Source of the DNA: Prevotella sp. UBA4217
Lineage (GTDB): Bacteria > Bacteroidota > Bacteroidia > Bacteroidales > Bacteroidaceae
Length of the DNA stretch: 27,983 nt
NCBI GenBank assembly: GCA_002379425.1
Contig: DFTH01000006.1
Span: 1-27,983, forward strand
Reading direction: 5' to 3'
The translations under genes and the position numbers were made by a program. Positions 103-27,930 of the stretch are shown here, piece after piece. Positions within the stretch are counted from its first letter, which is position 1. Every line of letters begins with the position of its first letter. The notes below the pieces were generated by a model. The model was not told the origin of the DNA. It made no database searches and worked only from the letters and a program-made list of their open reading frames with translations.

Positions 103-162
103 TAAATTTAGAGGGTTAAACAATATTGCAGGCGGACGGGCCCTCGATGGCCTATCCGACTG

Positions 163-194
163 CAAAGATACGACAAGTTTTCCATTCCGCCAAA
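163..194 (-). promoter_or_regulatory. Bacteroidetes-type promoter carried by repeat element copy 1
   Basis: On the minus strand TTTG (191-194), 20 bases, then TATCTTTG (163-170) match the Bacteroides -33/-7 consensus. Transcription would start near 156 and read into the Rpn-type gene with a leader of roughly 55 bases. The same block, nearly base for base, precedes the TPR/HTH gene at the other end of the window (27577-27608). Confidence 0.7.
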
Positions 195-229
195 TAATTC
201 ACGGAAAACCTCGACCTCTTCGTGAAATA

Positions 230-376
230 GGAGGCACTTTACGAAAATTTGGAGGCACTTTAGCAACGTGAGGAGCCTCTTTAGCAACGTAGGGAGCCTC
301 TTTAGCAACGTGAGGAGCCTCCTCATTCTCGTCCCAGGCCTTGGGAATTCAGGAAACAGCCTTCCTATTCCAGAAA
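230..376. repeat. Tandem array of seven 21-bp units (copy 1)
   Basis: Units start at 230, 251, 272, 293, 314, 335 and 356. The best-conserved units read GGAGCCTCTTTAGCAACG plus three variable bases; the first two have GGAGGCACTTTA instead, and the last two (335-376) are more diverged but stay in 21-base phase. Because 21 is divisible by three, the array stays open in several frames and yields leucine-rich heptad translations on the minus strand (RLLTLLK-like) and serine/phenylalanine-rich ones on the plus strand. These are not believable proteins. The array lies between the promoter block (163-194) and the palindrome (424-590). Copy 2 at 27625-27771 also has exactly seven units. Confidence 0.85.
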
Positions 377-423
377 AGACTCTTTCTATGTCGCACCCGA
401 CTGTCCACCTGACGAAATCTCTA

Positions 424-590
424 CATGCGCGCACATACGCCCGCGCATATATTATAGTTGCCATACCCACTTTTTATGTGTCCCACCTGTCCCATCTGTC
501 CCTGGTGGGAACTATCCTTCGTGGACAGATGGGACAGGTGGGACACTTGTTTTTGACTTGAGACAACTACTACGCCTGCGCGCGTGAGGG
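424..590. repeat. Large palindromic repeat with 24-bp perfect core arms (copy 1)
   Basis: The core arms 478-501 and 523-546 are perfect 24-base reverse complements around a 21-base spacer (502-522). Each arm is built from a 9-base subrepeat, TGTCCCAYC, repeated about two and a half times. Outside the core, degenerate outer arms rich in CGCG and TAGTTG can be traced to about 424 and 590. On the plus strand the core is followed by a T-rich stretch (547-553), so the RNA would look like a rho-independent terminator with a long loop. The outer limits are approximate. Copy 2 lies at 27776-27930. Confidence 0.85.
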
Positions 591-593
591 GAT

Positions 594-626
594 AAAAAAA
601 GAGGTCGCTGCTCACGCAGAGGCCCC
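594..626 (-). terminator. Rho-independent terminator of the first LruC gene
   Basis: On the minus strand an 11-bp stem (616-626 with 601-611, two mismatches) closes a GTGA tetraloop and is followed by a run of seven T (594-600). It lies 36 bases after the stop of the LruC gene at 663-2237. Its loop-side sequence GCGTGAGCAG is identical to that of the terminator behind the second LruC gene (4077-4109). Confidence 0.8.
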
Positions 627-662
627 TTTCCTAATTTAGTTATTTAAGTATTTGATGTGTTA

Positions 663-2237
663 TTATCTCCACCAGATGCGAGTCGGGTTTTCCAGAACCC
701 ACTGAGAGAACAGAGGATACTTTCTCTTGATGCTCTCGCGCTCAGCGCACCACTTTTTCTCAGTAGCGAAGTCCGTGCCAACGCAGAGTTTAGCGGCAGG
801 CTCACCACCAGTAGCGGTCAACTCCTTCCAATCTTCTACATAGCGGCCCTCGTCGTTCTTTGAGCCCTTGTCAACCAAGATCTTGATATCATTACCCCTC
901 TTTGACTTGTCAACAGCCAGATTCTCAAAGAGAACAACGGGTGCAACGTCATTCACATCGGCCTTAGCGCCAGTGTTGATCATCTTATATTTACCTGTTT
1001 CGGCATCAGGATTGGCATAGTTAAATGCTTCATGAACCTCTCTACCTGCTACCTTAAGGGGCAGAGTACCACCAGCAGCATACAACGTAACCTTAGCAGT
1101 TGTAGCAGAAGTATAGTGTACGGTGAAGACTACGTCGTTAAAGTCGAAGTCGGTATCGTCAGCAGCACTCAGGTCCTCAGCAATGATACATACATCATCT
1201 GGATCAGGCTCATTTTCGCGCTCAGCCTTAACGAGGCGGACAATCCAGTCTTTGTAACTGCTGTTAGGATTAACAATCATGTTGCCATTTATGACATTGT
1301 CAATACGCCATTCTGAACAATTAGCGCTTTCTCCAAAAACATATTCCTTCCCATTACAAGTGAATGCCTGTCCCGTTGCTTCTGCAACATTAGCATAGGC
1401 ACCTGGAATCTGTATATTTTGGGGGTTACCGTTCTCATCTTTAAAATAAGCTGCTGTCTTACCGTCAACATCCTGCTCAAAATCGAAACAGATGTAGTAG
1501 TAGCCAGCATAGTTAGTACCTTTACCATCTGTTCTTGGTACATTCGCACCGTCGATGGAACACCAGCGATTATGATACTTGCTGTCATCTGCTCCCTGGT
1601 AAGCGAAATCAAAGGTACCGCCATTTAAAACCATTGTATTACCTTCACCATCTTTGTCGCCAGCACCCCAGTCATTACAAGTTCCTGCGTTAAAGTTATT
1701 GATGTGATCCCAAGCAGTAGGACCTTCTGCACTCAGAATACCTTTATTACTAATGGTAAGACCATCACTCATGGCAATGTGCAGATTATTCATCTTATCA
1801 CTACCTATGCCAACATAGCCTCCATCCTTATTATTATAGGTCTCGTCACCCTTATGAATCTGAGTCACAAAATAATCTTGAAGTCTAACAGGATTTTTCT
1901 CTTTAGTTTGGAGAGTAGAAAGATAGGCCAGAACATCAGCCTCTTCTTTGGTACCAACTTCCGGGCAGTCTTTCCACTGATTACCATTCACATTAATAGT
2001 ACGCGTGCCTGCAGCGTCATAGCCACCGAAGCCCCAAGTCTGATTAGAGGGGATATCAGCAACACTATTAGCACCAACATACTTCAGGAATGCCTGGTTG
2101 TACTTCTCTACAGCCTGGTTTGCATTGTCAACAACTCTTACATTTGGATCATAGATGTCGTCACCACCCTTTGAGCAACTGGTCATGGCGGCGCACAGCG
2201 CTACGGCTGCTAAACCTGTCATCAAATACTTTTTCAT
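663..2237 (-). CDS. LruC-domain-containing lipoprotein (copy A)
   Basis: 524 residues. The N-terminus is a lipoprotein signal with a TSC lipobox (Cys21), so the mature protein should be an envelope, probably surface, lipoprotein. Residues 43-70 hold the block shared by all four LruC proteins here (YNQAF, then SNQTWGF). The LruC/DUF4842 core contains DFDFNDVVF at 363-371, an Asp-rich strand-loop typical of the family and possibly metal-binding. A C-terminal block, WCAERESIKRKYPLF with two closing Trp, ends the protein. From residue 80 to about 335 it is clearly paralogous to the protein at 4148-6424 (shared YFVTQ, HINNFN, SKYHN, DGAN and CFDFE strings). The exact function of LruC proteins in Bacteroidales is unknown. 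It has its own promoter (2326-2333) and terminator, so it is probably monocistronic. Confidence 0.88.
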   Translation of the reverse strand: MKKYLMTGLAAVALCAAMTSCSKGGDDIYDPNVRVVDNANQAVEKYNQAFLKYVGANSVADIPSNQTWGFGGYDAAGTRTINVNGNQWKDCPEVGTKEEADVLAYLSTLQTKEKNPVRLQDYFVTQIHKGDETYNNKDGGYVGIGSDKMNNLHIAMSDGLTISNKGILSAEGPTAWDHINNFNAGTCNDWGAGDKDGEGNTMVLNGGTFDFAYQGADDSKYHNRWCSIDGANVPRTDGKGTNYAGYYYICFDFEQDVDGKTAAYFKDENGNPQNIQIPGAYANVAEATGQAFTCNGKEYVFGESANCSEWRIDNVINGNMIVNPNSSYKDWIVRLVKAERENEPDPDDVCIIAEDLSAADDTDFDFNDVVFTVHYTSATTAKVTLYAAGGTLPLKVAGREVHEAFNYANPDAETGKYKMINTGAKADVNDVAPVVLFENLAVDKSKRGNDIKILVDKGSKNDEGRYVEDWKELTATGGEPAAKLCVGTDFATEKKWCAERESIKRKYPLFSQWVLENPTRIWWR

Positions 2238-2325
2238 AATCTCTTAATTTTAATTGTTAATAATTTGGTTATCTTTTCTGAATTTTTGTTCGTTTTGAGA
2301 GCGCTTTTTTACTAAAAAAGTGCTG

Positions 2326-2333
2326 CAAAGATA
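2326..2333 (-). promoter_or_regulatory. -7 box upstream of LruC copy A
   Basis: The minus strand reads TATCTTTG, an exact TAnnTTTG match, 88 bases before the ATG at 2237. No good TTTG lies 20 bases further upstream, so only the -7 element is supported. The AT-rich 2238-2442 interval holds this promoter and leader, and I see no gene in it. Confidence 0.6.
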
Positions 2334-2442
2334 CAAAAAATATAAATAGGTTGCCACCTTTTCCTGGTTAAAGAAAGTTAAGGAACATATAAACTTGCGT
2401 AGTTTGCTATAATTCGTATAGAAAATGATAATATAAGCAAAG

Positions 2443-2838
2443 TTAGGATTCAATCTGCCATTGGTCGATGGTTCGTGTTTCCGTGTCGAACTTGATACCT
2501 ATCTTTATGATTTTACGCCCATCGGTTTGATATGGGATAGCATAACCGCGCTTATTAATCTGTTCTAATGCGCTTTGGGCAGTGTCATTGACCTTCAGTT
2601 CCATGATATAGATAGTGTCAGGCATGAAGACAATAAGGTCTGTGCGGCCTTTTGAACTTTTAACCTGAGTGCGCACTAAGTCATTGAAGGATGTGAATAA
2701 CAAATAGAATGTGTATTCGTAAAAGCCCTCTGCAGTGGCAACGTTTTCCAGTTTCTTTTTAAATCCCTCTACGTAAGGCAGACTGGCAAGATATGCTTGC
2801 ATCTCAAGCATAGCCTTGTTGGCATCGCCATCATTCAA
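2443..2838 (-). pseudogene. PD-(D/E)XK nuclease domain, split off from the AAA-ATPase gene
   Basis: 131 residues equivalent to the C-terminal nuclease domain (PDDEXK_9) that normally ends AAA-ATPase-like proteins. GRTDLIVF followed by IYIMELKV gives the D...ExK catalytic signature, so the domain itself looks intact. No ATG begins it: the frame enters through TTG at 2838, which overlaps the ATPase stop (TTGA). The same frame is open upstream and reads TQGFAIRFWRAL just before, the expected linker. Restoring one G in the GGG at about 2865-2871 would fuse the two parts, so a one-base loss in a single gene is the simplest reading. The usual spacer between NNEVR and the linker also looks shortened. 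Translation as a separate, coupled polypeptide cannot be excluded. Confidence 0.7.
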
Positions 2839-3977
2839 TGCCCTCCAGAATCGGATGGCAAACCCTTGTGTATCCCTGTTCGCACTTCGTTGTTTGGAAA
2901 TGAGAGTGTATAGACATCCGAGAGGCGGTCATAGTCTTTGATAGTCAGGTAGCCTGCCTGATAGAGTAGAGGTAGTGCATCCTCCATGTCTTCTGTAGGC
3001 CTGTCGAATGCTGTTGACATGACTTCAAGTTTCTCCAGGGATGTAATATCTGTGTGAAAGCGTTTCAGTTGCTCTATGAGGAACGAAGGGGTACCAGTGG
3101 CAAACCACTCGCTTGTCAGTTTGTTGTCTGCAAATGCATTGAGAAGGCTATATGGGTTATAGATGTCTTCTGACTTTGCGGAGAAATGATACCCATCATA
3201 CATATCTTTGATTTTTTGGAACATATCTCCAGACGAACAATTATATTCTTTTGACATCTGAATGATTTCCTTTTTAAAGACGGTCCTTACTTCCTGTTCT
3301 GTGATTCCACAGATAGCAGAAAACCTTGGATTCATCGAAACATTCTTCAGGTTATTGATCGTGGAGAAAATACTCAGTTGGGAAAATTTCGTGATACCTG
3401 TGATAAAACAGAATTTGATATTCCTTTCATTAGATTTCAGTGGAAGGTAGAATTCCTGCATGACGTTGCGCATGTCTTCAAGCACATCTTTTTTATGCAA
3501 GACTTCCAATAATGGGGCATCATATTCGTCAATGATTATAACGGCCTGCCTTCCAGTCTGTTGCTGTGCTCGGGTGATGATTCCCGTCAGTAGTTTGCCT
3601 GGGCTTGTCTCATATTCTTTTTTGCCATAGATATCTGCTAATGGCTGTAAAAGCCAAAGCAGGGTGGATCGCAGTTCTTCAGCATTGGCTTGGCCTTTGC
3701 CCATGCTGAGGTCTAGGTGGATAACCGGATAATTGTCCCAGTCATTCTCGTATTTCATGATTTTGAGCCCATTGAATAGTTCTTTTTCTCCAAGGTAGTA
3801 TGACTCCAGTGTGGAGGAAAGCAAGGACTTGCCAAATCGGCGTGGACGACTGAGAAAAACAAATTTGGCAAAATGCTGTAACTCCCATACCAAGTCAGTT
3901 TTATCTACATACAGGTATCCTTCGCGGATGATTCGCGAGAAGGTTTGGATGCCAATTGGATATTTTCTTTCAGTCAT
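2835..3977 (-). CDS. AAA-ATPase-like protein, truncated before its nuclease domain
   Basis: 380 residues. Walker A is RPRRFGKS (44-51) and Walker B is IIIDEYD (147-153), the pattern of the AAA-ATPase_like/DUF1703 family common in many copies in Bacteroidales. Family members normally continue into a PD-(D/E)XK domain. Here the frame is lost after SFPNNEVRTG, and nine out-of-frame residues precede the stop; the nuclease follows in another frame (2443-2838). The biological role is unproven; defence and mobile-element functions have been suggested for the fold. The gene sits between two paralogous LruC genes and looks AT-richer than the genes to its right, consistent with insertion. It has an excellent promoter (4004-4035). 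The ATG at 3977 opens MTERKYPIGIQTF, a normal family start. Confidence 0.85.
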   Translation of the reverse strand: MTERKYPIGIQTFSRIIREGYLYVDKTDLVWELQHFAKFVFLSRPRRFGKSLLSSTLESYYLGEKELFNGLKIMKYENDWDNYPVIHLDLSMGKGQANAEELRSTLLWLLQPLADIYGKKEYETSPGKLLTGIITRAQQQTGRQAVIIIDEYDAPLLEVLHKKDVLEDMRNVMQEFYLPLKSNERNIKFCFITGITKFSQLSIFSTINNLKNVSMNPRFSAICGITEQEVRTVFKKEIIQMSKEYNCSSGDMFQKIKDMYDGYHFSAKSEDIYNPYSLLNAFADNKLTSEWFATGTPSFLIEQLKRFHTDITSLEKLEVMSTAFDRPTEDMEDALPLLYQAGYLTIKDYDRLSDVYTLSFPNNEVRTGIHKGLPSDSGGH

Positions 3978-4003
3978 ATAACTCTTAGAGGCTCATTTCC
4001 CGA

Positions 4004-4035
4004 CAAAGTTACGCTTTTTGGGATTACTTTCCAAA
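4004..4035 (-). promoter_or_regulatory. Promoter of the AAA-ATPase gene
   Basis: TTTG (4032-4035), 20 bases, TAACTTTG (4004-4011) on the minus strand. The -7 box ends 26 bases before the ATG at 3977. The spacing matches the best promoters in the window. Confidence 0.7.
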
Positions 4036-4076
4036 TCAGTTTTGCTAAAATCGTTACTTATTAACATCATTTTAAC

Positions 4077-4109
4077 AAAAAGAGGGGCGCCTGCTCACGC
4101 GGACGCCCC
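4077..4109 (-). terminator. Rho-independent terminator of LruC copy B
   Basis: GGGGCG, a bulged T and CC pair with GGCGCCCC (4101-4109 with 4084-4091) around a 9-base loop; TCTTTTT follows on the minus strand. It lies 38 bases behind the stop of the gene at 4148-6424. The loop region GCGTGAGCAG matches that of the terminator at 594-626. Confidence 0.85.
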
Positions 4110-4147
4110 TTCATGCAATGAAATGTATTTTAGATTATTTAAAGTGC

Positions 4148-6424
4148 TTAGTTAGACGAGGTAGAAACCTTCGTGATCTTGGTGATCGTCATGTCCTGGG
4201 CGTCAATATTCAAGAGTGGTCCGTTGGAGAACTTGCTGGCCTGATCCTGTGTTTCCACTTCAATGCTGTAGTAACCCTTGACTGAGAAGTCTATGCCTGA
4301 GTTTACACTGACAATGGCCTGATTAGCAGCATCCTTGAAGGTGATCCACCTGTTGCTGCCGCTTCCGTTGGTACCATATACCCTGAACTTGTCGCCCACG
4401 TTGAACGTGACGGAGGCAATGGTCAGATTTTCATTTGAACCGGACTCGGAAGAGTAGGTCTGGCTGCCTTCCCAAAGCGTGGTCTCTATGACAGAGTAAC
4501 TGCTGGAAGAGCGGATTTCCTCGGCTGAGTAGTTGGTCCAGATGTTGCCGTCGTTGGTGGTATAGTATTCGCGGCCGTTGGCATCCGTCAGCGACAGGCC
4601 AGTGGTCTTGCCTGTATAGAGGGAGTCTGTGGCGACCTGGTCGCCTTCGTTTTTGTAGAACTCAGGATATGAACTCTTGTCCGTAGCCCATATTGCGAAA
4701 TACTTATATGCTCCTGCCATGCTTCTGCGCTCGCTGGGCCATACCGTGCCGATGGGCAGACAGATCTTATGGGGAACCTGACCATAGTTAGCGTTCAGCA
4801 CGCCCACGGACTGCATGGTGCCGTAGCCGCTTGAGGGATCGTCGCTGCTACCCATGGTCCACAGCACCTCGAGGGGGATATCGTTGAGGCTGATGGTGCC
4901 TTTTTGGTTGACGATAGTGGTCATGTCGTAGGTGAAGGTGACGGGGTCTCTCTCTGCAGAGGAGTTCTCCCATGTAATCCCAATGTCGGCATGGTCGTCA
5001 ACGGTGTTGACCATGGTGGTCAGTCCGGCAGCGGGCTGGAAGATGTCGTGTACATTCCTCTCTGCCAGTTTGACGGGAATCGTTCCTCCGGCAGCCAGCA
5101 GGCATATCTCTGCCTCGTACTTACCTGCGCTGTAGTTCTTGTCCTCCGTACTGGAGCCTGTGGTCACCCTGTCAAACTCGAAGGTGTACCATATACGGGC
5201 ATCGAACACGATGTCGTTGAAGTCGATATCCTTGCGGCCTGCTGTTCCGAGGTCCTCGCAGAACACGCGTCCCTGCACAACCAGCACCTTCTTCTTGATG
5301 TGCTGAGTGGTGGTAGTGGTCGTCTCTGAGGGCGGAGGGGTAGTGCCAGTGCCAGGAGTAGTCGAACTGCCCTTAGTGATACGGATGATCCAGTCTGAAT
5401 AGACATTGTCACCAGGAATCATCTTGTCCTGCTGCTCCCAACCAGTAATCTGTATATTGCTTCTGTCTGTAATGCCCTGACTTTTAAGTGCTGCCAAAAC
5501 CTCTTCACTTGTATAATAGGTTCCAGACAATTGGCCATTAAAGCCGCCGTTACCTTGAGTCTCGTCATAGTAGGAATAGCGTGTCGTATTATTAGTCGGG
5601 GTGCTTTCAAAGTCGAAACATACATAGTAGTAGTTGGCGTATGCGCCATCGCTTGAAATGTTGGCACCGTCAACAAGGATCCACTTATTATGGTACTTGC
5701 TATCCAGAGAGTTGTAATAAGCAAAGTCGTATGCTCCCTTGCCCTCGACCTTTGTGTTACCGTTGCCAGGAGATGTTACAAAGCCATAATCTACATTCTT
5801 ACTACCATTAAAATTATTAATGTGCTCCCATCCAGATGCATTATATCCGTTCCCTTCATTTGCATTATTTAAATCTGACATTCTGGGATTCTGGTTGAAT
5901 GCAATCTGGAGATGGTTCATCCAGTTACCAACATTCGTAACTTGTGCGTTGTTGTTATAGGTATTGGTGTAAGTGTTGTCGGCATAGTTATTAGCACCAC
6001 TTCTTACCTGTGTTACAAAATAGCCATTAAGATTCTCTGGGTGAGTAGTTGCGAAAGGCTTGTTGTTATTCCTCATCCAAGTGGTTCCATTCTTAACATA
6101 CTCAAAAATCTTGTTCACCTCATCAGGAATGGTGACTCCCGGACATTCTGTCCATTCGTTTCCATTGACATTGATAGCGCCATCGATACCGTTATTACGC
6201 GTCATGGCGCGGGTGGCGGCATCCTCTTCGGGCAGGGCTATCGACTCGAAACCCCAGTCCTGATTAGGATCGACCTTACCGCCGATCATCTCCTCGAATG
6301 CCTTCTCATAGGCTTGTGACTTCTGCTGGGCAAGGGGGACATAGTCAACATCCTTGTCAGCACAACTGGCTGCAAAACCTCCTGCGACAAGAGCCAGTAA
6401 TCCTTTAATCAAATACTTTTTCAT
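4148..6424 (-). CDS. LruC-domain lipoprotein with C-terminal beta-rich module (copy B)
   Basis: 758 residues. Lipoprotein signal with ASC lipobox (Cys21). The shared N-terminal block is AYEKAF...DPNQDWGF (39-59). Residues 80-350 are paralogous to the protein at 663-2237. A Thr/Pro-rich linker follows (352-374), then the LruC core with DIDFNDIVFD (399-408) and the shared C-terminal block VWPSERRSM...YFAIWA (561-580). Unlike its paralogue it continues for about 170 more residues, with a module starting near LWEGSQ (650) and rich in alternating hydrophobic strands. Similar WEGS-type beta-sandwich tails occur on secreted Bacteroidetes proteins, so ligand binding is a guess. Both paralogues begin MKKYL and have similar terminators, pointing to tandem duplication. 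Its target and partner are unknown. Confidence 0.88.
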   Translation of the reverse strand: MKKYLIKGLLALVAGGFAASCADKDVDYVPLAQQKSQAYEKAFEEMIGGKVDPNQDWGFESIALPEEDAATRAMTRNNGIDGAINVNGNEWTECPGVTIPDEVNKIFEYVKNGTTWMRNNNKPFATTHPENLNGYFVTQVRSGANNYADNTYTNTYNNNAQVTNVGNWMNHLQIAFNQNPRMSDLNNANEGNGYNASGWEHINNFNGSKNVDYGFVTSPGNGNTKVEGKGAYDFAYYNSLDSKYHNKWILVDGANISSDGAYANYYYVCFDFESTPTNNTTRYSYYDETQGNGGFNGQLSGTYYTSEEVLAALKSQGITDRSNIQITGWEQQDKMIPGDNVYSDWIIRITKGSSTTPGTGTTPPPSETTTTTTQHIKKKVLVVQGRVFCEDLGTAGRKDIDFNDIVFDARIWYTFEFDRVTTGSSTEDKNYSAGKYEAEICLLAAGGTIPVKLAERNVHDIFQPAAGLTTMVNTVDDHADIGITWENSSAERDPVTFTYDMTTIVNQKGTISLNDIPLEVLWTMGSSDDPSSGYGTMQSVGVLNANYGQVPHKICLPIGTVWPSERRSMAGAYKYFAIWATDKSSYPEFYKNEGDQVATDSLYTGKTTGLSLTDANGREYYTTNDGNIWTNYSAEEIRSSSSYSVIETTLWEGSQTYSSESGSNENLTIASVTFNVGDKFRVYGTNGSGSNRWITFKDAANQAIVSVNSGIDFSVKGYYSIEVETQDQASKFSNGPLLNIDAQDMTITKITKVSTSSN

Positions 6425-6482
6425 TGCAAATAAACTATTAATAGAATGTTACGTAACTTAATCAACCTAATCGATTTGGGTG

Positions 6483-6490
6483 CAAATTTA
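6483..6490 (-). promoter_or_regulatory. -7 box for LruC copy B
   Basis: The minus strand reads TAAATTTG, 58 bases before the ATG at 6424. A TTTG occurs 23 bases upstream (6514-6517), longer than the usual spacing. It lies in the 184-bp divergent intergenic region shared with the next LruC gene. Confidence 0.5.
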
Positions 6491-6576
6491 ATTAAAAATC
6501 CGCGAAGTTGTATCAAAATCGATGTTAAAATCTGTAAAACATGCCGTTTCATGACGTAAGTGTGCAATAAATTTCG

Positions 6577-6584
6577 TAATTTTG
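6577..6584 (+). promoter_or_regulatory. -7 box for LruC copy C
   Basis: TAATTTTG on the plus strand, 24 bases before the ATG at 6609. I see no convincing -33 TTTG. It is divergent from the promoter at 6483-6490. Confidence 0.5.
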
Positions 6585-6608
6585 GCGCAAAATAATGCAA
6601 AATAAGAT

Positions 6609-7889: not shown

Positions 7890-10171
7890 TAAGAGACGAT
7901 CTTACTGCTTGTGGCGTTGCTGCTGTCGTACCAGTCGATGGCAGTCTGGGTGTTGGCTGCCCAGTTGCTGAACTGCGGGTAGGCCACACCGATATTGTTG
8001 CCCTCGGAGGGCCAGAAGAATTTGCCTGAAGGATTGCCATTGACCACTATATAGAGCGGGGCCTCACCCTGTAGGGCGGGCTGTGACTCTGTCGTGACGG
8101 TGCCGTTCTCGTCTTCCACGCTCAGGGAGAAGCCGAGGGCATCTGTACGGAAGCCACCGTTAGTGAAGGTGATGTCGTCCAGTTTGCGGAACAGGCGGCT
8201 GACGGAGGTGACGTTGATGGGTGAGGTGACGGCGGTGCCGATGGCGCTATGTACCTCGTCGCCGAAGGGTGCTCCGTCGTAGAGCACGGTGGTCTTCACC
8301 GTGTTGCCCACGCACATCACCTGTACGCTGGTGAGGAAGGTGCCGTCGCCATTGTCGATGGGGGTGTTGACACGGAGGACGACATCATTGTAGTCGAAGT
8401 CCTTCGTGGATGACTCCAGCGTCTCGAAGAGATAGAAGACACAGCCGATAGCGGGGGTAGAGCCCGTCTCTGCACTGTTGAAGGTGGCATGGCCGGCATG
8501 GTTGTACGATGGCGAGGTGCTGTAGGTGCAGGTCTGGCGACTGCTCTCCACGCCTGTCGCTGCGGAACCGTTCCATACGAGAGCGTATTTCCCTCCATCC
8601 TGGCTCACGAGGTAGTTACCTGCGTCGAGCAGTTTCCCTTCATAGCCGTTGAACCAGTAGTAGAGCATGCGGAGGTTCTGGTAGCCGGAGAAACTCTCCA
8701 GTAACTTGCCGACGCCCATGACGCGCTTGTCACTGTCCCATGCGTTGATGGCCCCGTTGTTGAAGATAGTGGGGAAAGTGCTGGGAAGGATCAGTTCGAC
8801 ATGGTCGAGCAGATAGGTGTCTGCCACGCCTTCGGTCGTCACACAGTTGGTGCAGCGGTTGACCTTGAAGATGGCATTGGCCTTGAAGTTGGCATCGGCA
8901 GGCCCCTGTACCCCGAAGTTGTCGATGCTCACGTCACCCAGGCAGTTCATGTAGGCGGCATTGCCCATGTAGAGCACCTTGCCGCCCGAGGCATCGCCGT
9001 TCAGGGTGAGCGACGTGCACTCGGTATAACTGCCGTCGTCCATCCTGGAAGTGCCGTTCAGCGTCAGTCCGCCGTTGATTTTCAGATAGCCGGCATTGTC
9101 GATGGACAGTTCATCGCCGATAATCGCGGTGAGGTTGGCCACGCCGGCATTCACAAAGAGGCTCGACGCCCTGTCGTTGGCGGAGCAGACCAGTGCGGTA
9201 GAGGAGGCCCCCGTGGCCCCTATCGTGCCGCTGTTGTAGAGGGTGCCGCCATTCATACGGACATTCAGGCAGGTGATGGTACCGGCATTATAGCAGAAGG
9301 TGCCCTCGTTGGTGGAAAACTCCACTTCTCCGTCACCAACGATCTCTCCACCCGGGAGGACATAGATCAGGCCGCACTCCTCGTCGGCCAGTGGTGCGGA
9401 AGTGAGTCGGAAGCCATCAGGGACGACAAGCCTGCCGCCTTCACCCACGATGAGGACATTATTCCGGGACACCCGCTGGTTGAACGACAGGGTCCAGGTA
9501 GCGGTGACATAGACTGATTTCTTGTCGAACGTGCTCAGACTGGGTATGAAGCCTAAGAAGTCGGAACTGACGATATAGTGCACTTCTCCTTCGTAGTCGA
9601 TCTTTTCCTCGAGATTCCTTGGGTCGATGAGTTTTCCTGTGGTATAGTCCGATAGGTCGGGCATGACTCGGGCGGGAACGCTCCATCTGTTGTCCAGAGT
9701 GGGGGAGTAACTGGCCGTTTCCGACGGGCTCTTGCCAGAGAACGCGACTTCCGTCTCACCTTCACCGACGACGAAGGGCTTGCTGACGGCATGGCCCTGC
9801 TCATCATAGCAGGCGGCATAGAGGAGGGGCGTGTTGGCAGGACGGGCGATGCTGATGGTCTTCGACTCGCCGGATGCCAACTTGGCCATACCGATATAGG
9901 CGGCATTCGCATCGAGGATCAGGGGAGTCGTAGAGATATATACCGTGTAGGCTTTGTCGTTGTCGTAATCGACACTGACCTTGACGGAGGCATTGCCTAC
10001 CGTGCTCCAGTCCTGATGGCTGTCGATCGTCTTCCCGCCCATCACCAGGGCATTGAAATTATCGACGAACTTCTGTTCCTGGCTTGATTCTGTCACTCTT
10101 GAACAACTGACAACCGTTAAGCATAGGGATACAGCCACTACGCATTTTATCCAATTACTCCTTCTTTTCAT
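7886..10171 (-). CDS. LruC-domain lipoprotein with long repetitive beta-helix-like middle (copy D)
   Basis: 761 residues. Signal peptide with a VSC lipobox (Cys23). The N-terminal block is FVDNFNALVMGG...SHQDW (35-55). Residues of roughly 210-470 are rich in Gly/Asn turns and short strands (NSGTIGATG, NNGAINAW and similar), suggesting a right-handed beta-helix or stacked-sheet stalk; this is an inference from composition. The LruC core DFDYNDVVLRV begins at 591 and the shared C-terminal block is WPSEGNNIGVAYPQF...DWY (720-748). The ATG is only 18 bases behind the tRNA-Met gene, and no separate promoter fits in that gap, so it is probably transcribed from the tRNA promoter. Its stop overlaps that of the convergent copy C, with no hairpin between them. 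Confidence 0.87.
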   Translation of the reverse strand: MKRRSNWIKCVVAVSLCLTVVSCSRVTESSQEQKFVDNFNALVMGGKTIDSHQDWSTVGNASVKVSVDYDNDKAYTVYISTTPLILDANAAYIGMAKLASGESKTISIARPANTPLLYAACYDEQGHAVSKPFVVGEGETEVAFSGKSPSETASYSPTLDNRWSVPARVMPDLSDYTTGKLIDPRNLEEKIDYEGEVHYIVSSDFLGFIPSLSTFDKKSVYVTATWTLSFNQRVSRNNVLIVGEGGRLVVPDGFRLTSAPLADEECGLIYVLPGGEIVGDGEVEFSTNEGTFCYNAGTITCLNVRMNGGTLYNSGTIGATGASSTALVCSANDRASSLFVNAGVANLTAIIGDELSIDNAGYLKINGGLTLNGTSRMDDGSYTECTSLTLNGDASGGKVLYMGNAAYMNCLGDVSIDNFGVQGPADANFKANAIFKVNRCTNCVTTEGVADTYLLDHVELILPSTFPTIFNNGAINAWDSDKRVMGVGKLLESFSGYQNLRMLYYWFNGYEGKLLDAGNYLVSQDGGKYALVWNGSAATGVESSRQTCTYSTSPSYNHAGHATFNSAETGSTPAIGCVFYLFETLESSTKDFDYNDVVLRVNTPIDNGDGTFLTSVQVMCVGNTVKTTVLYDGAPFGDEVHSAIGTAVTSPINVTSVSRLFRKLDDITFTNGGFRTDALGFSLSVEDENGTVTTESQPALQGEAPLYIVVNGNPSGKFFWPSEGNNIGVAYPQFSNWAANTQTAIDWYDSSNATSSKIVSY

Positions 10172-10189: not shown

Positions 10190-10263
10190 TGGACCAGCCA
10201 GGGCTTGAACCTGGGACCTCCAGATTATGAGTCTGTTGCTCTAACCAACTGAGCTACAAGTCC
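10190..10263 (-). tRNA. tRNA-Met(CAT)
   Basis: 74 bases fold as a cloverleaf: acceptor GGACTTG with CTGGTCC (one T-T mismatch), a D-arm with AGCTCAGTTGGTTAGAGC, an anticodon loop CTCATAA giving CAT, a GGTTCAAGC T-arm and discriminator A. CCA is not encoded. Elongator methionine is likelier than initiator. A CAT anticodon could also be the lysidine-modified isoleucine tRNA, which sequence reading alone cannot exclude. Confidence 0.93.
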
Positions 10264-14015: not shown

Positions 14016-14034
14016 ATTTCTTATTTTCTAGTCG

Positions 14035-14070
14035 TCCTAGTCATTCTAGATATCCTAGTCATTCTAGGTA
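14035..14070. repeat. Tandem 18-bp repeat between speA and argB, rich in CTAG
   Basis: Two 18-base units, TCCTAGTCATTCTAGATA and TCCTAGTCATTCTAGGTA (14035-14052 and 14053-14070), with a partial third before them (TCTAGTCG, 14028-14035). The second unit covers the last codons and stop of speA. CTAG is normally scarce in bacterial DNA, yet it occurs five times here. Confidence 0.75.
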
Positions 14071-19441: not shown

Positions 19442-19446
19442 AGTCC

Positions 19447-20935: not shown

Positions 20936-20957
20936 CAAATAATTCAACTATTTTTCG

Positions 20958-20965
20958 TAATTTTG
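20958..20965 (+). promoter_or_regulatory. -7 box of the alpha/beta-hydrolase gene
   Basis: TAATTTTG on the plus strand, 18 bases before the ATG at 20984, so the leader is only about ten bases. The -33 element is unclear. Confidence 0.55.
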
Positions 20966-20983
20966 CCAGCAAATTGTAGAAAA

Positions 20984-21814: not shown

Positions 21815-21824
21815 AGAAGCCTTA

Positions 21825-21905
21825 TTATGGTTTCAGGGCCTCATAGATACTTTGTGCTGATACGCTAAACACAGAAGCGGCCGCCAGTAGGCAGGCAAAG
21901 AGCAT
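21825..21905 (-). CDS. Short ORF with secretion signal behind tRNA-Val, possible gene remnant
   Basis: 26 residues starting MLFACLLAAASVFSVSAQ and ending in eight more residues (SIYEALKP) before TAA. The N-terminal part looks exactly like a type I signal peptide with a SAQ cleavage site. The in-frame codons before the ATG read Ile-Lys-Arg (ATA AAA CGT), so the original start may have been a lost ATG. It lies 49 bases downstream of the tRNA-Val gene on the same strand and could be read from the tRNA promoter. It is either a decayed 5' end of a secreted-protein gene or a very small exported peptide. Confidence 0.4.
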   Translation of the reverse strand: MLFACLLAAASVFSVSAQSIYEALKP

Positions 21906-21954
21906 ACGTTTTATAAAAAAGGGAAGATAAAGATTGTAAATGCTAGTCTAATTG

Positions 21955-22028
21955 TGTCGACACTTGGATTCGGACCAAGGACCCCCACCATGTCAAGGTG
22001 ATACTCTAACCAACTGAGCTATGCCGAC
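21955..22028 (-). tRNA. tRNA-Val(GAC)
   Basis: 74 bases with acceptor GTCGGCA paired to TGTCGAC (one G-T), a D-arm AGCTCAGTTGGTTAGAGT, anticodon stem CACC/GGTG, loop TTGACAT giving GAC, a GGTCCGAATCC T-arm and discriminator A. CCA is not encoded. The T-loop has TCCGAAT rather than the usual TTCGAAT. Confidence 0.93.
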
Positions 22029-22049
22029 AATTTTGATTGTTTGCGGGTG

Positions 22050-22081
22050 CAAAGGTAAGCATAAGATTTCAAATATGCAAG
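22050..22081 (-). promoter_or_regulatory. Promoter of tRNA-Val
   Basis: TACCTTTG (22050-22057) on the minus strand, 21 bases before the tRNA 5' end. A CTTG (22078-22081) lies 20 bases upstream, three of four matches to the -33 TTTG. This -33 element sits inside the left arm of the hairpin at 22070-22108. Confidence 0.6.
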
Positions 22082-22108
22082 AATTTCAGCGAAATTCTTG
22101 CATATTTG
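22070..22108 (-). terminator. 18-bp perfect hairpin between the DUF4369 gene and tRNA-Val, probable terminator
   Basis: 22070-22087 and 22091-22108 are perfect reverse complements around a three-base loop; the stem is AT-rich (ATATGCAAGAATTT). It starts eight bases after the stop of the DUF4369 gene. There is no T-run after the stem on the minus strand, so it is not a classical terminator, and it overlaps the tRNA-Val -33 element. Confidence 0.6.
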
Positions 22109-22115
22109 TCATCAT

Positions 22116-23270
22116 CTACAGCAGTTTCTTGATCTCTGCCTCCAGATCCTTGATCTGCGCGGCACGCTTTACGAGGTTATTGCCACGGTCGATGAGGAAG
22201 TAGTCGGGAACCGCCTGTACGTTGTACAACAAGAGCCGTTGCGACTGGATGCCGTCTGCATCGCGCACGCAGATCCAGGGGAGGGCCGACGTCTGCTGCT
22301 TCCAGAAGTGCTCGTCGGGATCAAGCGATACCTGATAGACCTCGAAACCCTGCTGCTGGTATTTGTTGTAGAGTTCACGGAGCATCAGGATACGGGCGGG
22401 TGAGTCCTCCAGGGCGAAGATATGGAAGTCGAGCAGTACGACCTTGCCCTGCAGGTCTGTCAGATGGCGCTCCTGACCTTTGTTGTCGATGAGGCTGATA
22501 TCGAGCACTCCTGACTCCTTCACCTTGCTGGCATCCACTTGCAGATCCTTGTTCTGGGCGTCAACGATGCGCATGGTCTTCATCCCCTCGATGGCGATAT
22601 TGTGCAGGTTCTGCCCGCGCTCGGCATGAGGGTAATAGGTGTCCCAACTGGTGGCAACGGCAGCGAAGGCCTTGATGTCGTCCTTGTTGGTGCGGGGGTT
22701 GAAGATGAGCCACTGGCCGATGGTCTGGAAGAGTGCGAAGTAGGAGTAGGCCTTCATGGGCTCCTTGTAGATATAGTTGCGCTTCACTTCCTCCTTATAG
22801 GCATCGATCAGTTTCTGGATACTGTCGTTGGCGGCGGTGATGCCCAGTTGCGTGTTCTGCTGGAGGGCAATGGCCTGGGCCTGCAGTGCCATCTGCTTCT
22901 GGGTGAGTTCCTTGATCTTCTCGCAGTTGTCCGACCCGGAGATGCTATAGTTGGAAGCCATGTCAGGATAGGTGCCCCTGACTTGGACGGTCTCTGTGGA
23001 ATCGATGCTGACATTGATGATCTGGTCGGCTATACGGAGACGGTAGAACTCTGGGGCCTGGTTGGCTGCCTCGCTGAAGGAGAAGTCGCCTGAGTCACCC
23101 AACTTGACGGAGTCCAGCACATTGATGCCTTCAAGTCCTACGTTCTCAAAGTAGAGCACAGAGTCCTTGGCATTTGCAATCTGTCCTTCCACCTTAAACT
23201 TCTTGTCGCTGCATGAAGCAATCGTCAAGACTGCCATCAGCAGCAGGGCTGATTTCCAAAGATGTTTCAT
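22116..23270 (-). CDS. DUF4369/thioredoxin-like lipoprotein lacking the CxxC motif
   Basis: 384 residues from MKHLWKSALLLMAVLTIASC (lipobox Cys20); the upstream in-frame extension crosses the promoter and is rejected. Residues about 27-110 form a DUF4369 domain (KVEGQIANAKDSVLYFENV...). The middle, about 125-250, is helical. From about 258 comes a thioredoxin/AhpC-TSA fold: GKVVLLDF (275-282), but then HIFALEDSPAR, where TlpA-type proteins have WASWCGPCR. The cis-Pro region VPDYFLID (354-361) is kept. It therefore cannot act as a normal disulfide oxidoreductase and may bind or scaffold instead. It is divergent from pnp. Confidence 0.88.
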   Translation of the reverse strand: MKHLWKSALLLMAVLTIASCSDKKFKVEGQIANAKDSVLYFENVGLEGINVLDSVKLGDSGDFSFSEAANQAPEFYRLRIADQIINVSIDSTETVQVRGTYPDMASNYSISGSDNCEKIKELTQKQMALQAQAIALQQNTQLGITAANDSIQKLIDAYKEEVKRNYIYKEPMKAYSYFALFQTIGQWLIFNPRTNKDDIKAFAAVATSWDTYYPHAERGQNLHNIAIEGMKTMRIVDAQNKDLQVDASKVKESGVLDISLIDNKGQERHLTDLQGKVVLLDFHIFALEDSPARILMLRELYNKYQQQGFEVYQVSLDPDEHFWKQQTSALPWICVRDADGIQSQRLLLYNVQAVPDYFLIDRGNNLVKRAAQIKDLEAEIKKLL

Positions 23271-23303
23271 ATCTGATATCGTATATATTTCTTTTTGCGG
23301 CTG

Positions 23304-23311
23304 CAAAGGTA
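23304..23311 (-). promoter_or_regulatory. -7 box of the DUF4369 lipoprotein gene
   Basis: The minus strand reads TACCTTTG, 34 bases before the ATG at 23270. The -33 element is weak. Confidence 0.55.
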
Positions 23312-23374
23312 CGTCTTTTTTCATAAAAAACGAAAAATAATCCCGTTTTCTTCGTTTATTTATATTATAATGTG

Positions 23375-23382
23375 TAACTTTG
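23375..23382 (+). promoter_or_regulatory. pnp: -7 box of pnp
   Basis: TAACTTTG, 69 bases before the ATG at 23452. The roughly 60-base leader is T-rich and shows no strong hairpin of the type used for PNPase autoregulation in enterics. Confidence 0.6.
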
Positions 23383-23451
23383 CGCCGTTTTAGCGACTGA
23401 CAGCGCTCATGTCGCATCGTGTTTTTTATTTTTAGATGTTTTTATTTTAAG

Positions 23452-25827
23452 ATGAACGTAATTACAAAGACCCTTCAATTGGCTGATGGACGCACCATCA
23501 CCATTGAGACCGGGAAAGTGGCAAAACAGACCGACGGCTCTGTTGTTCTCCGCATGAACAACACCGTATTGCTCGCCACTGTTTGTGCCGCAAAAGATGC
23601 AGTTCCCGGAACAGATTTCATGCCTTTGCAGGTAGATTATCGTGAACAGTACAGTGCAGCCGGACGATTCCCCGGTGGATTTACCAAGCGCGAAGGCAAA
23701 GCCAGCGACAACGAAATCCTGACATCACGACTGGTCGATCGCGTGCTCCGCCCGCTCTTCCCGTCAAACTATCACGCTGAGGTGTTCGTGAACGTGATGC
23801 TGCTCTCCGCCGACGGCGTGGATCAGCCCGATGCCCTGGCAGGCTTCGCTGCCTCTGCAGCCATGGCTTGCTCCGACATCCCCTTCGAGTGCCCCATCAG
23901 TGAGGTGCGCGTGGCCCGTGTTGGTGGCGAGTATGTCATTAATCCTACCTTCGAGCAGATGAAGGAGGCCGACATGGATATCATGGTCGGTGCCTCTGCT
24001 GAGAACATCATGATGGTGGAAGGTGAGATGAAAGAGGTGTCAGAACAGGATATGATCGGTGCCCTCAAGGCTGCCATGGCAGCCATCAAGCCGATGTGCG
24101 AACTGCAGGCAGAACTTTCCAAGGAACTCGGCAAGGACGTGAAGCGTGAGTATGACCACGAGGTGAACGACGAGGCACTGCGCGAGCGGATGAACAAGGA
24201 ACTCTACCAGCCTGCCTACGACATCACCAAGCAGGCCCTGGAGAAGCAGGCCCGTCAGGATGCCTTCGACAAACTGCTCGAAGACTTCAAGGAGAAGTTC
24301 TTCGAGGAGCGTAAGGCACTCGCCGAGAACTCCGAATCTGCAGAGGAGCCCGAGATTTCCGACGACGACTATGCTGCCATGATGGACCGCTACTACCACG
24401 ACGTGATGCGCGATGCCATGCGCCGCTGCATCCTCGATGAGGGTATCCGCCTGGATGGCCGTAAGTGCGACGAGATCCGTCCTATCTGGTGCGAGGTCTC
24501 TCCCCTGCCCATGCCTCACGGAAGCAGTATCTTCACGCGTGGTGAGACACAGTCGCTCTCTACCTGTACCCTCGGTACGAAACTGGATGAGAAACTCGTT
24601 GACGACGTACTGGAGCACGGCTACCAGCGCTTCCTGCTCCACTATAACTTCCCGCCGTTCTGCACGGGCGAGGCCAAGGCTCAGCGCGGCGTAGGCCGTC
24701 GTGAGATCGGTCACGGCCATCTGGCATGGCGCGGACTGAAGGGCCAGATTCCCGAGGACTTCCCCTACACCGTTCGTCTGGTGTCTCAGATCCTGGAGTC
24801 CAACGGCTCTTCTTCAATGGCTACTGTATGTGCCGGTACCTTGGCCCTGATGGATGCCGGCGTACCCATGAAGAAGCCCGTATCAGGTATCGCCATGGGT
24901 CTGATCAAGAACCCCGGCGAAGAGAAGTACGCCGTGCTCAGTGATATCCTCGGTGATGAGGACCACTTGGGCGACATGGACTTCAAGACCACGGGTACGA
25001 AGGACGGTCTGACAGCCACGCAGATGGATATCAAGTGCGACGGTCTGTCGTTCGAGATCCTGGAGAAAGCACTGATGCAGGCCAAGGCTGGTCGTGAGCA
25101 TATCCTGAAGTGCCTCACCGATACCATCGCCGAGCCGCGTGCAGAGATGAAGCCGCAGGTACCGCGCATCGTGGCCTTCGATATTCCCAAGGAGTTTATT
25201 GGTGCAGTCATTGGCCCGGGCGGAAAGATCATCCAGCAGATGCAGGAGGATACCGGTGCCACGATCACCATCGACGAGACCGATGGTGTCGGCAAGGTGC
25301 AGGTGTCTGCTCCTAACAAGGACAGCATCGACGCTGCCGTTGCCAAGATCAAGGCCATCGTGGCCATCCCCGAGGTGGGTGAGATCTACGATGGTGTCGT
25401 GCGCTCCATCATGCCTTACGGCTGCTTCGTAGAGATCATGCCTGGCAAGGACGGGCTGCTCCATATCTCAGAGATTGACTGGAAGCGCCTGGAGACTGTC
25501 GAGGAGGCAGGTATCAAGGAGGGCGATAAGATCAAGGTGAAGTTACTCGAGATCGACCCGAAGACGGGTAAGTACAAACTCTCCCACCGTGTACTGATCG
25601 AGAAGCCGGCCGACTACGTGGAGCCCCAGCAGCGCCGCCGCGAGCGTGGTGAGCGTCCCGAGAGAGGCGAGCGCCGCGACCGTCGTCCAGACCGTGGCGA
25701 CCGCAGGAACGGCGACCGTTGCGAGCGTGGTGAGCATCGTCCGCACAACGACCACCAGGAGGAGGCTCCGAAGGTAGATAACGAACCGAAGGACTTCAGC
25801 GATTCGCTCGACAACATGGACTTCTAA
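23452..25827 (+). CDS. pnp: Polyribonucleotide nucleotidyltransferase (PNPase)
   Basis: 791 residues from [21 protein letters not shown]; an in-frame ATG at 23419 is too close to the promoter. Phosphorolytic 3'-5' exoribonuclease of RNA turnover. Two RNase PH domains flank a helical domain; the second begins around [13 protein letters not shown], and the core has [29 protein letters not shown] and [12 protein letters not shown]. The KH domain (about 573-635) has [14 protein letters not shown] and the S1 domain (about 643-712) has GEIYDGVV...PYGCFVEI. A disordered tail of 66 residues (726-791) follows, first Arg/Glu/Gly/Asp-rich, then acidic, ending NMDF. A strong terminator follows. Confidence 0.97.
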
Positions 25828-25832
25828 ATAGC

Positions 25833-25863
25833 AAGCCCCTCGCTCCACGGCGAGGGGCTTTTT
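25833..25863 (+). terminator. Rho-independent terminator of pnp
   Basis: Perfect 10-bp stem AAGCCCCTCG/CGAGGGGCTT (25833-25842 with 25851-25860), followed by T-run 25859-25863, five bases after the pnp stop. Confidence 0.93.
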
Positions 25864-25915
25864 CGATAAATTTAAAGGCACATTACGAAAACAGTCTTCG
25901 TGCGCGTAGAAGGAA

Positions 25916-27568
25916 TCACTGTTTCTTAATGCCAAAATGCTTCAACAGGTTTGACTCAAACTGGCGTGCGGTCTTCTGATTGAACAGGATGAGACTCAAT
26001 TCGGCTCTGAGATTAGTAATACGTTGCGGCGAAACCTTTAGAAGACGGGCGATGTCATTGACATGAACATCGAGGATACTTAAAATGCAGACCTTCTTCA
26101 TCTGGATTGTCATGGCCTCGTTCTGCTCAAACTCCTGTTGTAATATAGGGAAGTGCTCATACGTGACTGTTAAAAGGTCGTCAAAGGCCTTCTCTGTTAG
26201 ATTCTGATGAGGATTATTGGCTATAAGGACAGAACGGAGCACAACATCATTGGTGAAATACTTCTTGGACATCGCCTTCCTTTTTGATGCAGTCAGTTCT
26301 TCCTCCTGCCGTGATTGCATCTTAGCGAGTTGATGCTCATATTCTTGTCTTGCTTGCTCCTGTTTGTGAAAATAATCACGTTGTAGTTGTTCCTTTTCCT
26401 CTTGATGCAACTGTAGCAATTCTTCCTCTCTCTCCAAATGGATTCTTCGCAAACGAACTTGAACCTTGCGGAACCGCTTGACCAAATAGGCAATGCCAAC
26501 AATAAATGCTATGAGCAAAAGAAGCGTAACCGCAAATGCTATAAAAGCCCATAATGCCTTGTTCTCGTTTTCGAGATACTGTTCCTTATAGTAGTGGTAG
26601 TCATAACTGGCTGCAAGTTGGGCCGTCTGTTGCTGGTCCTTGCGAATAACCGACGAATCTGTGGCCATACAATACAGCATGGAGTATTTTACAACAGAGT
26701 CTGCCTGATGTAGTTTTCCCGAAATATTTAGTAGCCCTTCGTATATCATGGTCAAGGAAGTTAGTGGCATCTGGGGGTTATATGCCCTCCTATAATAATA
26801 ATCGGCAGAATCCAGAAGGTTGATACCCTCATAATAAGCACCCTTATAATAATAGAACAAACGCTTTGAAGGGGGAAGTTCATGATACTTGTCAAACTGT
26901 TTGGATTCATGGTCATACTGGTCTATTAGTTGTTTTAGTTCAGACAGACGGTCTGGCTTGCCAGCATATAGATGCATCAACATTGTTGAGGTCTGCAAAG
27001 CGTCTTGCCCATAGCCATGCTCACGGTATTGGCGCATCGTCTCACGAAGGAGGATCTCGGCACTATCCCGCTTGTTCATGAGAATATAGGCACCCGCTAT
27101 CATGCCCTTATGATAAATGGTATGGAAGGTATCTTTGGCACACAGAAAACAGCGGCTGGCCTGTCGGCGTGCATGAATTTCGTTGGAAAGCAGTAGTTGC
27201 TTATGAAAGAGACTTGCCATTTGGGAGTAAACCCGGCCAAGGACGGCGTAGTCGCAATCCGGCGAGGATGTGTCGGCCTTGGCCACAGCATCGAGATAGC
27301 AGTCAACGGCTCGGGTCGTCTCACCCATGTCGGCATAGGTACGCCCGAGGATATACTTGGCGCGCATGCGCTCGTTGGCCGAGCCGTGGCGGTAGAAGTA
27401 ATCCGCGAGGGCCTCAGCCAGCGAGTCGTTGAGCATTGGCTCGTCACTTCTGTTACGCTGCTCCAGGGCCGACAGTTGCTCCCGCATCTGCGCGCCATCG
27501 CGCGCGCAGCCCATCAACAACACCAGGGCGCACACGCAGGAAAGACTATATGTCAATGCTCTCTTCAT
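25916..27568 (-). CDS. TPR lipoprotein with transmembrane segment, coiled coil and C-terminal HTH (membrane-bound regulator)
   Basis: 550 residues from MKRALTYSLSCVCALVLLMGC (lipobox Cys21). Residues about 45-330 form helical TPR-like repeats, with a conserved KYILGRTYADMGETTRAVDCY unit first. A single membrane span covers 339-363. A charged Glu/Gln/Arg coiled coil covers about 366-435. The last 70 residues contain NDIARLLKVSPQRITNLRAEL (504-524), a helix-turn-helix. The layout fits the Bacteroidales family of membrane-anchored TPR regulators: the periplasmic TPR part senses and the cytoplasmic HTH acts on DNA. Ligand and targets are unknown. The frame stays open upstream to 27742 through the 21-bp array, but that extension reads heptad-repeat DNA and crosses the promoter. 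The convergent pnp is 88 bases away. Confidence 0.88.
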   Translation of the reverse strand: MKRALTYSLSCVCALVLLMGCARDGAQMREQLSALEQRNRSDEPMLNDSLAEALADYFYRHGSANERMRAKYILGRTYADMGETTRAVDCYLDAVAKADTSSPDCDYAVLGRVYSQMASLFHKQLLLSNEIHARRQASRCFLCAKDTFHTIYHKGMIAGAYILMNKRDSAEILLRETMRQYREHGYGQDALQTSTMLMHLYAGKPDRLSELKQLIDQYDHESKQFDKYHELPPSKRLFYYYKGAYYEGINLLDSADYYYRRAYNPQMPLTSLTMIYEGLLNISGKLHQADSVVKYSMLYCMATDSSVIRKDQQQTAQLAASYDYHYYKEQYLENENKALWAFIAFAVTLLLLIAFIVGIAYLVKRFRKVQVRLRRIHLEREEELLQLHQEEKEQLQRDYFHKQEQARQEYEHQLAKMQSRQEEELTASKRKAMSKKYFTNDVVLRSVLIANNPHQNLTEKAFDDLLTVTYEHFPILQQEFEQNEAMTIQMKKVCILSILDVHVNDIARLLKVSPQRITNLRAELSLILFNQKTARQFESNLLKHFGIKKQ

Positions 27569-27576
27569 GGTCTGTG

Positions 27577-27608
27577 CAAAGATACGACAAGTTTTCCATT
27601 CCGCCAAA
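27577..27608 (-). promoter_or_regulatory. Promoter carried by repeat element copy 2
   Basis: TTTG (27605-27608), 20 bases, TATCTTTG (27577-27584) on the minus strand. Only eight bases separate the -7 box from the ATG at 27568, so the TPR/HTH gene's mRNA would be leaderless or nearly so. The block from 27576 to 27608 differs at no position from 162-194. Confidence 0.7.
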
Positions 27609-27624
27609 CAATTCTCGACAAATA

Positions 27625-27771
27625 AGAGGCACTTTAGCAGAATGAGGAGGCTCTTTACGAACGTGAGGAGCCTCTTTAGAAACGTAGGGAGCCTCCTCAG
27701 AAACGTAGGGAGCCTCCTCAGTTCCGTAAAGTGCCTCCTCATTTCAGAAAACAGCCTTCCTATTCCAGAAA
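27625..27771. repeat. Tandem array of seven 21-bp units (copy 2)
   Basis: Units begin at 27625, 27646, 27667, 27688, 27709, 27730 and 27751. The best resemble GGAGCCTCTTTAGAAACG. The final unit, ACAGCCTTCCTATTCCAGAA plus A, is identical to the final unit of copy 1 (356-376). Units differ mostly in the middle bases (CTTTA against CCTCA). The array lies between the promoter and the palindrome, as in copy 1. Confidence 0.85.
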
Positions 27772-27775
27772 AGTG

Positions 27776-27930
27776 CCTTCGCGCGCGTGCGTGGTAGTTG
27801 TCTTACCCACTTTTTATGTGTCCCATCTGTTCCACCTGTCCACGGTGCTGACTATCCTTCTTGGACAGATGGGACACGTGGGACACTTGTTTTTGGCTTA
27901 AGACAACTACTACGCCTGCGCACGCGAAGG
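27776..27930. repeat. Large palindromic repeat with nested arms (copy 2)
   Basis: Core arms 27818-27841 and 27863-27886 pair at 20 of 24 positions (two of the four exceptions would be G-U in RNA) around a 21-base spacer, the same spacer length as copy 1. A second, outer pair of arms is perfect over 12 bases, GTAGTTGTCTTA (27794-27805) with 27899-27910. Beyond it CCTTCGCG (27776-27783) matches CGCGAAGG (27923-27930). The whole is a 155-bp nested palindrome. Confidence 0.85.

Follow-up and report, generated by a model that had tools for sequence, protein, structure and literature searches.

Arrays of 21-bp units with interchangeable inverted hairpin arms are dispersed in a Prevotella genome and recur beside BT4734/VapE genes

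We analyzed a window of 27,983 bp that comprises the entire contig DFTH01000006.1 (G000:C5) of Prevotella sp. UBA4217, a draft genome that is 58% complete and distributed over 17 contigs. As the original prediction had described from the letters alone, two copies of a composite non-coding element lie at the two ends of this window, in the same orientation and with a shared order of promoter block, array of 21-bp units and nested palindrome. These copies belong to a dispersed family of arrays with inverted hairpin arms that also occurs beside BT4734/VapE genes, and this family is the subject of our study. Both ends of the window sit inside dispersed repeats, and contigs C2, C8, C12, C14, C16 and C17 likewise start or stop in or close to copies or fragments. 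Because contigs break at repeats, the placement of the element at both window ends is an effect of the assembly, and the repeats explain contig breaks in this draft genome.

In the left copy, the promoter block, a 48-nt repeat (161–208), reads leftward into a gene starting near position 96. Its counterpart on the right (27575–27617) lies upstream of a 550-aa reading frame starting at 27568. A 31-nt promoter core is identical at 161–191 and 27575–27605, a match reached in none of 100 shuffles, and the block carries the box TATCTTTG, which we take to be of the −7 type found in Bacteroidetes promoters. Matches to GAGGCACTTTA with up to one mismatch number six in the window against 0.33 in shuffles, with one of the six located elsewhere in the window, and those to GTGTCCCACCTGTCC with up to two mismatches number eight against 0.10. 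Instead of the seven units anticipated for each copy, a weight-matrix scan returned five clear GAGGCTCCTCACGTTGCTAAA-like units on the left (217–321), with degenerate units beyond, and eight on the right (27612–27779). A spacer module common to other copies, SP (386–438), separates the left array from the hairpin module HA (454–569), which consists of inner arms (478–501 and 523–546), A-rich shoulders and outer arms. The nested palindrome with a 21-base spacer is found as predicted in this copy, where the 24-bp inner arms are 100% paired around a 21-nt spacer and the module folds with z values of −8.8 and −9.9 on the two strands. On the right (HA at 27795–27909, with outer arms at 27780–27805 and 27899–27924), the inner palindrome is imperfect, with 13 bp of perfect pairing and 34 nt in between. 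A simple terminator scan did not recover the terminator proposed for 594–626, and an Rfam scan of the window at gathering score matched only a tRNA, leaving the element assigned to no known RNA family.

The 430-bp left element gave 82 matches in its own genome, many of them pieces of one copy. Forty stretches were sampled in addition to the window, and weight-matrix scanning of these 41 sequences located 35 arrays in 34 of them. Unit spacing was exactly 21 bp in 149 of 152 cases, with the scan permitting only 20–22 bp. Three unrelated hairpin types accompany this one array family: type 1, the type of the window, at 25 of the 35 arrays (one represented by a 27-nt piece only, at a contig end), type 2 (CCTTTCAGCC...GGCTGAAAGG, inverted at the two ends and unrelated to type 1) at seven, and type 3 at one, with none assigned for the remaining two. 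The fullest type 1 copy, L104, reads hairpin, spacer, array and inverted hairpin, with HA and HB as inverted copies at the two ends. Classified by neighboring reading frames of at least 110 aa rather than by annotated genes, 31 sites comprised 11 convergent, 13 tandem and six divergent arrangements and one contig end. An exception to the intergenic placement is L088, in which the array lies inside a gene. The view of the element as a composite non-coding repeat was thus borne out by dozens of copies, mostly between different gene pairs, and needs revision in that the promoter is a separate repeat and the hairpins are interchangeable modules.

The promoter accompanies only four of the 35 arrays. 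It also occurs without an array close by, as at L073:3315–3362, L096:2004–2051, L107:2001–2043 and L111:2002–2049, and we therefore rejected it as a constant part of the element. Promoter-block relatives of 34–57 nt are present in other congeneric genomes, and most listed matches outside the own genome in a genus search align with the query at its promoter end only. It is the array with its inverted arms that forms the constant core, and the parts do to this extent occur independently of each other. Duplication of one gene family, another origin that had been considered for the two copies, also applies in part: the element, the promoter and the initial bases of one lipoprotein-like gene recur together in the right copy (at 27540–27617), L079 and L097, which thus arose by duplication of a segment including the gene start. 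Flanking sequence is also common to L006 and L008, and to L009 and L011. As a constant RNA hairpin, the array was likewise discarded, since the right array (27620–27765) forms a long predicted hairpin on each strand (z values of −9.1 and −8.3) whereas the left folds weakly (−2.6 and −0.7), providing no general rule.

To relate these findings to other genomes, we built a three-unit sequence model from 29 arrays of four genomes. It matched 41 of 398 congeneric genomes at E ≤ 0.001, a count that includes the own and model genomes and rests on rough E-values, with 13 candidates scored per genome. Among 14 matched loci inspected, several carry other inverted arms (G083, G338 and G131), and none were seen by eye in the others. 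Full-length copies of the window element were found only in its own genome among the 398, with two candidates scored per genome. In the congeneric genome G056, two further arm types, type 1-prime and type 4, flank arrays of this unit family. Type 1-prime has a stem different from that of type 1 but has retained the outer arms and A-rich shoulders. A narrow pattern scan of a contig collection, from which records of the own genome were possibly excluded, retrieved just two contigs, both from a single species and identical to G056 loci. L099 of the own genome and L135 of G056 were considered as a shared filled site and set aside, as the support came from a single flanking gene (86% identity over 440 aa).

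We compared 27 hairpins, 22 of them distinct, from the own genome and G056: 94.7% of stem cells pair and 17 of 24 stem pairs have changed on both sides. Using the structure of the window's own hairpin, stem covariation amounted to 0.354 against 0.121 in shuffles, none of 500 of which reached it, and slid controls stayed at or below 0.080. These compensatory changes show retention of the inverted form, not function, because template switching in inverted repeats can also produce compensation. The unequal similarity among the parts of the element, previously taken to suggest different selection on each, is real; it reflects modular exchange together with compensatory stem change rather than demonstrated selection per part.

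Comparison with relatives, as the original prediction had suggested, uncovered a single site where five other species do not carry the element. In the own genome, a full element separates a convergent gene pair, presumably typA and luxS as judged from the protein starts. This pair is adjacent without the element in five of the ten species examined (G018, G164, G067, G020 and G104), which contain a terminator-like hairpin between the two genes. In the other five, the stretch contains no luxS-like match or has it 2.2 kb away.

Three array loci adjoin homologous genes. Pfam assigned a VapE-like domain (PF05272) to all three products and BT4734-like_N (PF08800) to two; relatives on plasmids are labeled 'BT4734/BF3469 family protein', PHROGs matches are mostly helicases and primases, PADLOC gives PrimPol and the single solved relative is a VapE-like protein (7pds). 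A scan of 57 stretches surrounding arrays or element parts detected VapE sequence in three, and the own genome contains six VapE matches. At L088 (G000:C8), a type 1 hairpin, 76–77% identical over 103–120 bases to those of L072, L081 and L085, lies 5′ of the VapE gene, and the array runs in frame within the gene. In L218, which contains the gene of L091, type 3 arms and an array are positioned directly upstream of the VapE gene. L215 features type 2 hairpins at both ends of the VapE gene, inverted as in gene-less copies. Thus, within one genome, gene-less copies share arms and array with a VapE-linked copy for type 1 (L088) as well as type 2 (L215). Among the VapE genes of G056, L134 carries type 4 and aligns with six gene-less loci, while L221 carries type 1-prime, with a hairpin that matches six (one partly); L146 matches L221 in the array alone. 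Types 1, 2, 1-prime and 4 are, therefore, each represented by gene-less copies and a VapE-linked copy, and type 3 was seen only beside VapE. An array within the VapE gene occurs in two species (L088:1960–3528 in G000:C8 and L221:3581–4882 in G056:C16); in L088, it encodes 7-residue repeats (KEAPHVS-KEAPHNR) ahead of the ATPase domain. In G040, four VapE copies about 95% alike (L234–L237) are embedded in a larger repeated unit, in which an upstream frame reads like a zinc-finger primase, judged by reading alone. One of these copies is interrupted by a 685-bp stretch of other short repeats. We considered the near-identical copies as a source of exact ends, but no ends were obtained as they form part of the larger unit.

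To assess how general the link is, we turned to the genus, where BT4734_N matches occur in 39 of 60 congeneric genomes. Forty listed VapE places were sampled, mostly high-scoring ones plus the G040 copies and four of G061, and exclusion of three G040 copies duplicating L234 left 37 genes. At least three direct repeats with a period of 20–23 bp (22 bp in all hits) were present within 450 bp upstream of 17 of these 37 genes, compared to two of 80 other frames in the same stretches (Fisher P = 1.5 × 10^−8). Six of the 17 hits are arm-like 11-bp repeats, and the strict count is 11 of 37 (P = 5 × 10^−5). By either count, direct repeats in the range of about 17–22 bp characteristic of iterons thus lie beside this initiator-like gene more often than beside control frames. 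Inverted arms (score ≥14 within 600 bp upstream) accompanied 19 of 36 VapE genes and eight of 78 controls (P = 2 × 10^−6), and the order arm, array, inverted arm and gene was read in L250, L255, L256, L262 and L269, among others. An earlier gene set gave 11 of 18 against one of 54 controls with a repeat; this set derived partly from array-picked genomes, two of its genes were scanned 300 bp into the coding part and at least three of the 11 best hits (L088, L219 and L223) are repeats other than the array. VapE protein identity correlated with upstream 9-mer sharing (r = 0.30 over 49 genes, 0 of 2,000 permutations), as expected if the gene and its upstream region travel together. The literature searched, with partial coverage, yielded no description of arrays beside BT4734/VapE genes.

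The proteins encoded beside the repeats differ from canonical primases. The DxD of motif I is kept in ten of 37 sampled proteins, none of which is associated with the repeat, and is degenerate (LEVNNL or other forms) in the other 27, of which 17 are (P = 6 × 10^−4). The catalytic primase motif I, hhhDhD/E, is accordingly absent from all 17 repeat-linked proteins. Walker-A-like and Walker-B-like motifs were recognized by simple expressions in 42 and 41 of 49 proteins, respectively. In the array-linked subfamily, the N-domain has, judging by its residues, probably ceased to prime and may bind DNA. BT4734-like proteins have been described as an archaeo-eukaryotic primase family and VirE/VapE domains as predicted helicases of mobile-element replication (PMC5862659, available sections), and the gene family treated there is the same as that beside the cassettes (PF08800 and PF05272). 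In those sections, arms and gene-less copies are unmentioned and the word iteron is absent, and the degenerate motif I sets the array-linked subfamily apart from the BT4734-like primases reported.

Because the same arms-and-array cassette sits upstream of or around VapE genes in this and other Prevotella, we lean, with some reserve, toward the window elements being gene-less derivatives of single-gene BT4734/VapE elements. The phasing of the array by two helical turns, next to a gene resembling an initiator, suggests that it is iteron-like: the repeats would correspond to plasmid iterons and provide the site where the VapE protein of the element loads. This protein would be an AAA+ ATPase, with a primase-like N-domain that probably now serves as a non-catalytic DNA-binding part. 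The unit to be copied would be delimited by hairpins that the inverted arms form, and a VapE protein from another place in the genome might copy gene-less cassettes in trans. That VapE binds the array, that cassettes are mobilized in trans and that the hairpins act as ends is what we infer from sequence. In its widest form, the proposal would amount to transposase-less bacterial transposons, in which a dead-primase/AAA+ BT4734-VapE protein loads on an iteron-like array and copies DNA between paired inverted hairpin arms, with gene-less satellites bearing interchangeable arms filling dozens of Prevotella intergenic spaces; this we offer tentatively, as a scenario that we would sooner expect to fail than to hold. 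Inserted copies may also act as transcription terminators for neighboring genes, given that an ordinary terminator-like hairpin takes the place of the element at the sole empty site examined.

Several observations weigh against a VapE-based origin. VapE genes are found beyond such elements: 409 phage records and 61 plasmid records contain relatives, all below 60% identity. Three of the six VapE genes in the own genome lack an N-domain match, including the type 1-linked L088, and no intact type 1 copy with the gene was seen in the 58% of this genome that is available. The array upstream of the L215 gene matches weakly (E = 0.013); by eye, three units start at 21-bp intervals. No repeat accompanies 20 of the 37 sampled VapE genes (26 by the strict count), while two controls were positive. 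Most type 1 copies have a hairpin at a single end, a poor fit with hairpins as both ends. Neither a target-site duplication nor an exact excision site was found at typA-luxS, where the empty-site spacer is too diverged to read the junction. Of 19 units tested for dyad symmetry, eight showed it strongly (seven or eight of eight) and those of the window weakly (five and six of eight), and no covariation between half-sites within units was found.

Alternatively, the copies could be miniature inverted-repeat transposable elements (MITEs) with an internal minisatellite. The hairpins would then be their terminal inverted repeats, an ordinary insertion sequence (IS) transposase would move them in trans and the VapE link would be incidental, arising from insertions close to mobile genes. 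Inverted ends, the mostly intergenic position and the restriction of full-length copies to one genome all accord with this reading, for which a close published parallel exists in BrickBuilt. It is, in our estimation, unlikely: a single genome combines one array family with three unrelated kinds of end, cassettes of array and arms are found again upstream of VapE genes in different species, no target duplication was found at the one empty site, with its diverged spacer, and no transposase framed by these hairpins was noticed in the stretches read, with Y1_Tnp the only one searched for. BrickBuilt and PINSR are the closest described repeats in the literature covered. According to the accessible text of PMC4596501, the BrickBuilt MITE of Porphyromonas gingivalis (as well as MITE464/PgRS) is likewise intergenic and species-restricted with inverted ends and reported promoter elements, and is present in 19 copies in ATCC 33277 with tandem 23-bp units (41 bp in PgRS). 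Unlike the roughly 100-nt hairpins observed here, its ends measure 11–12 nt and match IS5-family elements; that text describes one end type and does not report a helicase-gene counterpart. PINSR, a 188-bp repeat of Prevotella intermedia and Prevotella nigrescens, is similarly an amplified intergenic non-coding Prevotella repeat, for which the accessible part of PMC4755523 mentions neither terminal inverted repeats nor a gene-bearing relative; the distinction is by description, not sequence.

A host protein binding a fixed regulatory or chromosome-organizing array of 21-bp sites, with hairpins that insulate or terminate and VapE genes that merely use the same sites, would account for the regular phasing, for the 11 of 30 classified sites between convergent frames and for the element occupying the place of the terminator-like hairpin of other species at typA-luxS. 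The arms differ within and between genomes, however, the sole site compared is empty in five species and upstream sequence follows VapE relatedness, making such a fixed array decidedly improbable. Least credible, with a very small chance of being correct, is copying of the element as repetitive extragenic palindromic (REP) or bacterial interspersed mosaic element (BIME)-type repeats by a RAYT (Y1) transposase. Imperfect palindromes do occur in inverted pairs, and the own genome encodes one Y1_Tnp gene (L112:1423–1962, near 89.4 kb of G000:C1) with a 3′ palindrome that, by eye, shares about ten bases with type 2 hairpins. This sole RAYT-like gene is flanked by inverted palindromes of its own (C1:87812 and C1:89946). 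With up to three mismatches allowed, the available genome has no further match to them, and we rejected the system on this basis. The units studied here are, moreover, far longer than REPs. Iteron plasmid origins, with direct repeats about two helical turns apart beside an initiator gene, offer the same arrangement as found here; unlike them, the arrays are accompanied by long inverted hairpins and dispersed without a gene over the chromosome, and the initiator function is putative.

If the window elements are indeed gene-less derivatives of BT4734/VapE elements, many Prevotella BT4734/VapE genes would gain a recognizable DNA partner and the dispersed repeat family would become a testable mobile-element system. 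Should VapE alone move the cassettes, DNA would be spreading by a new route in which no transposase takes part.

Elsewhere in the window, the tRNA matched by Rfam is located at 10190–10263 on the minus strand, and other short tandem repeats occur at 8859–8899 and 14026–14067 (18-bp units each) and at 23423–23454 (16-bp units).

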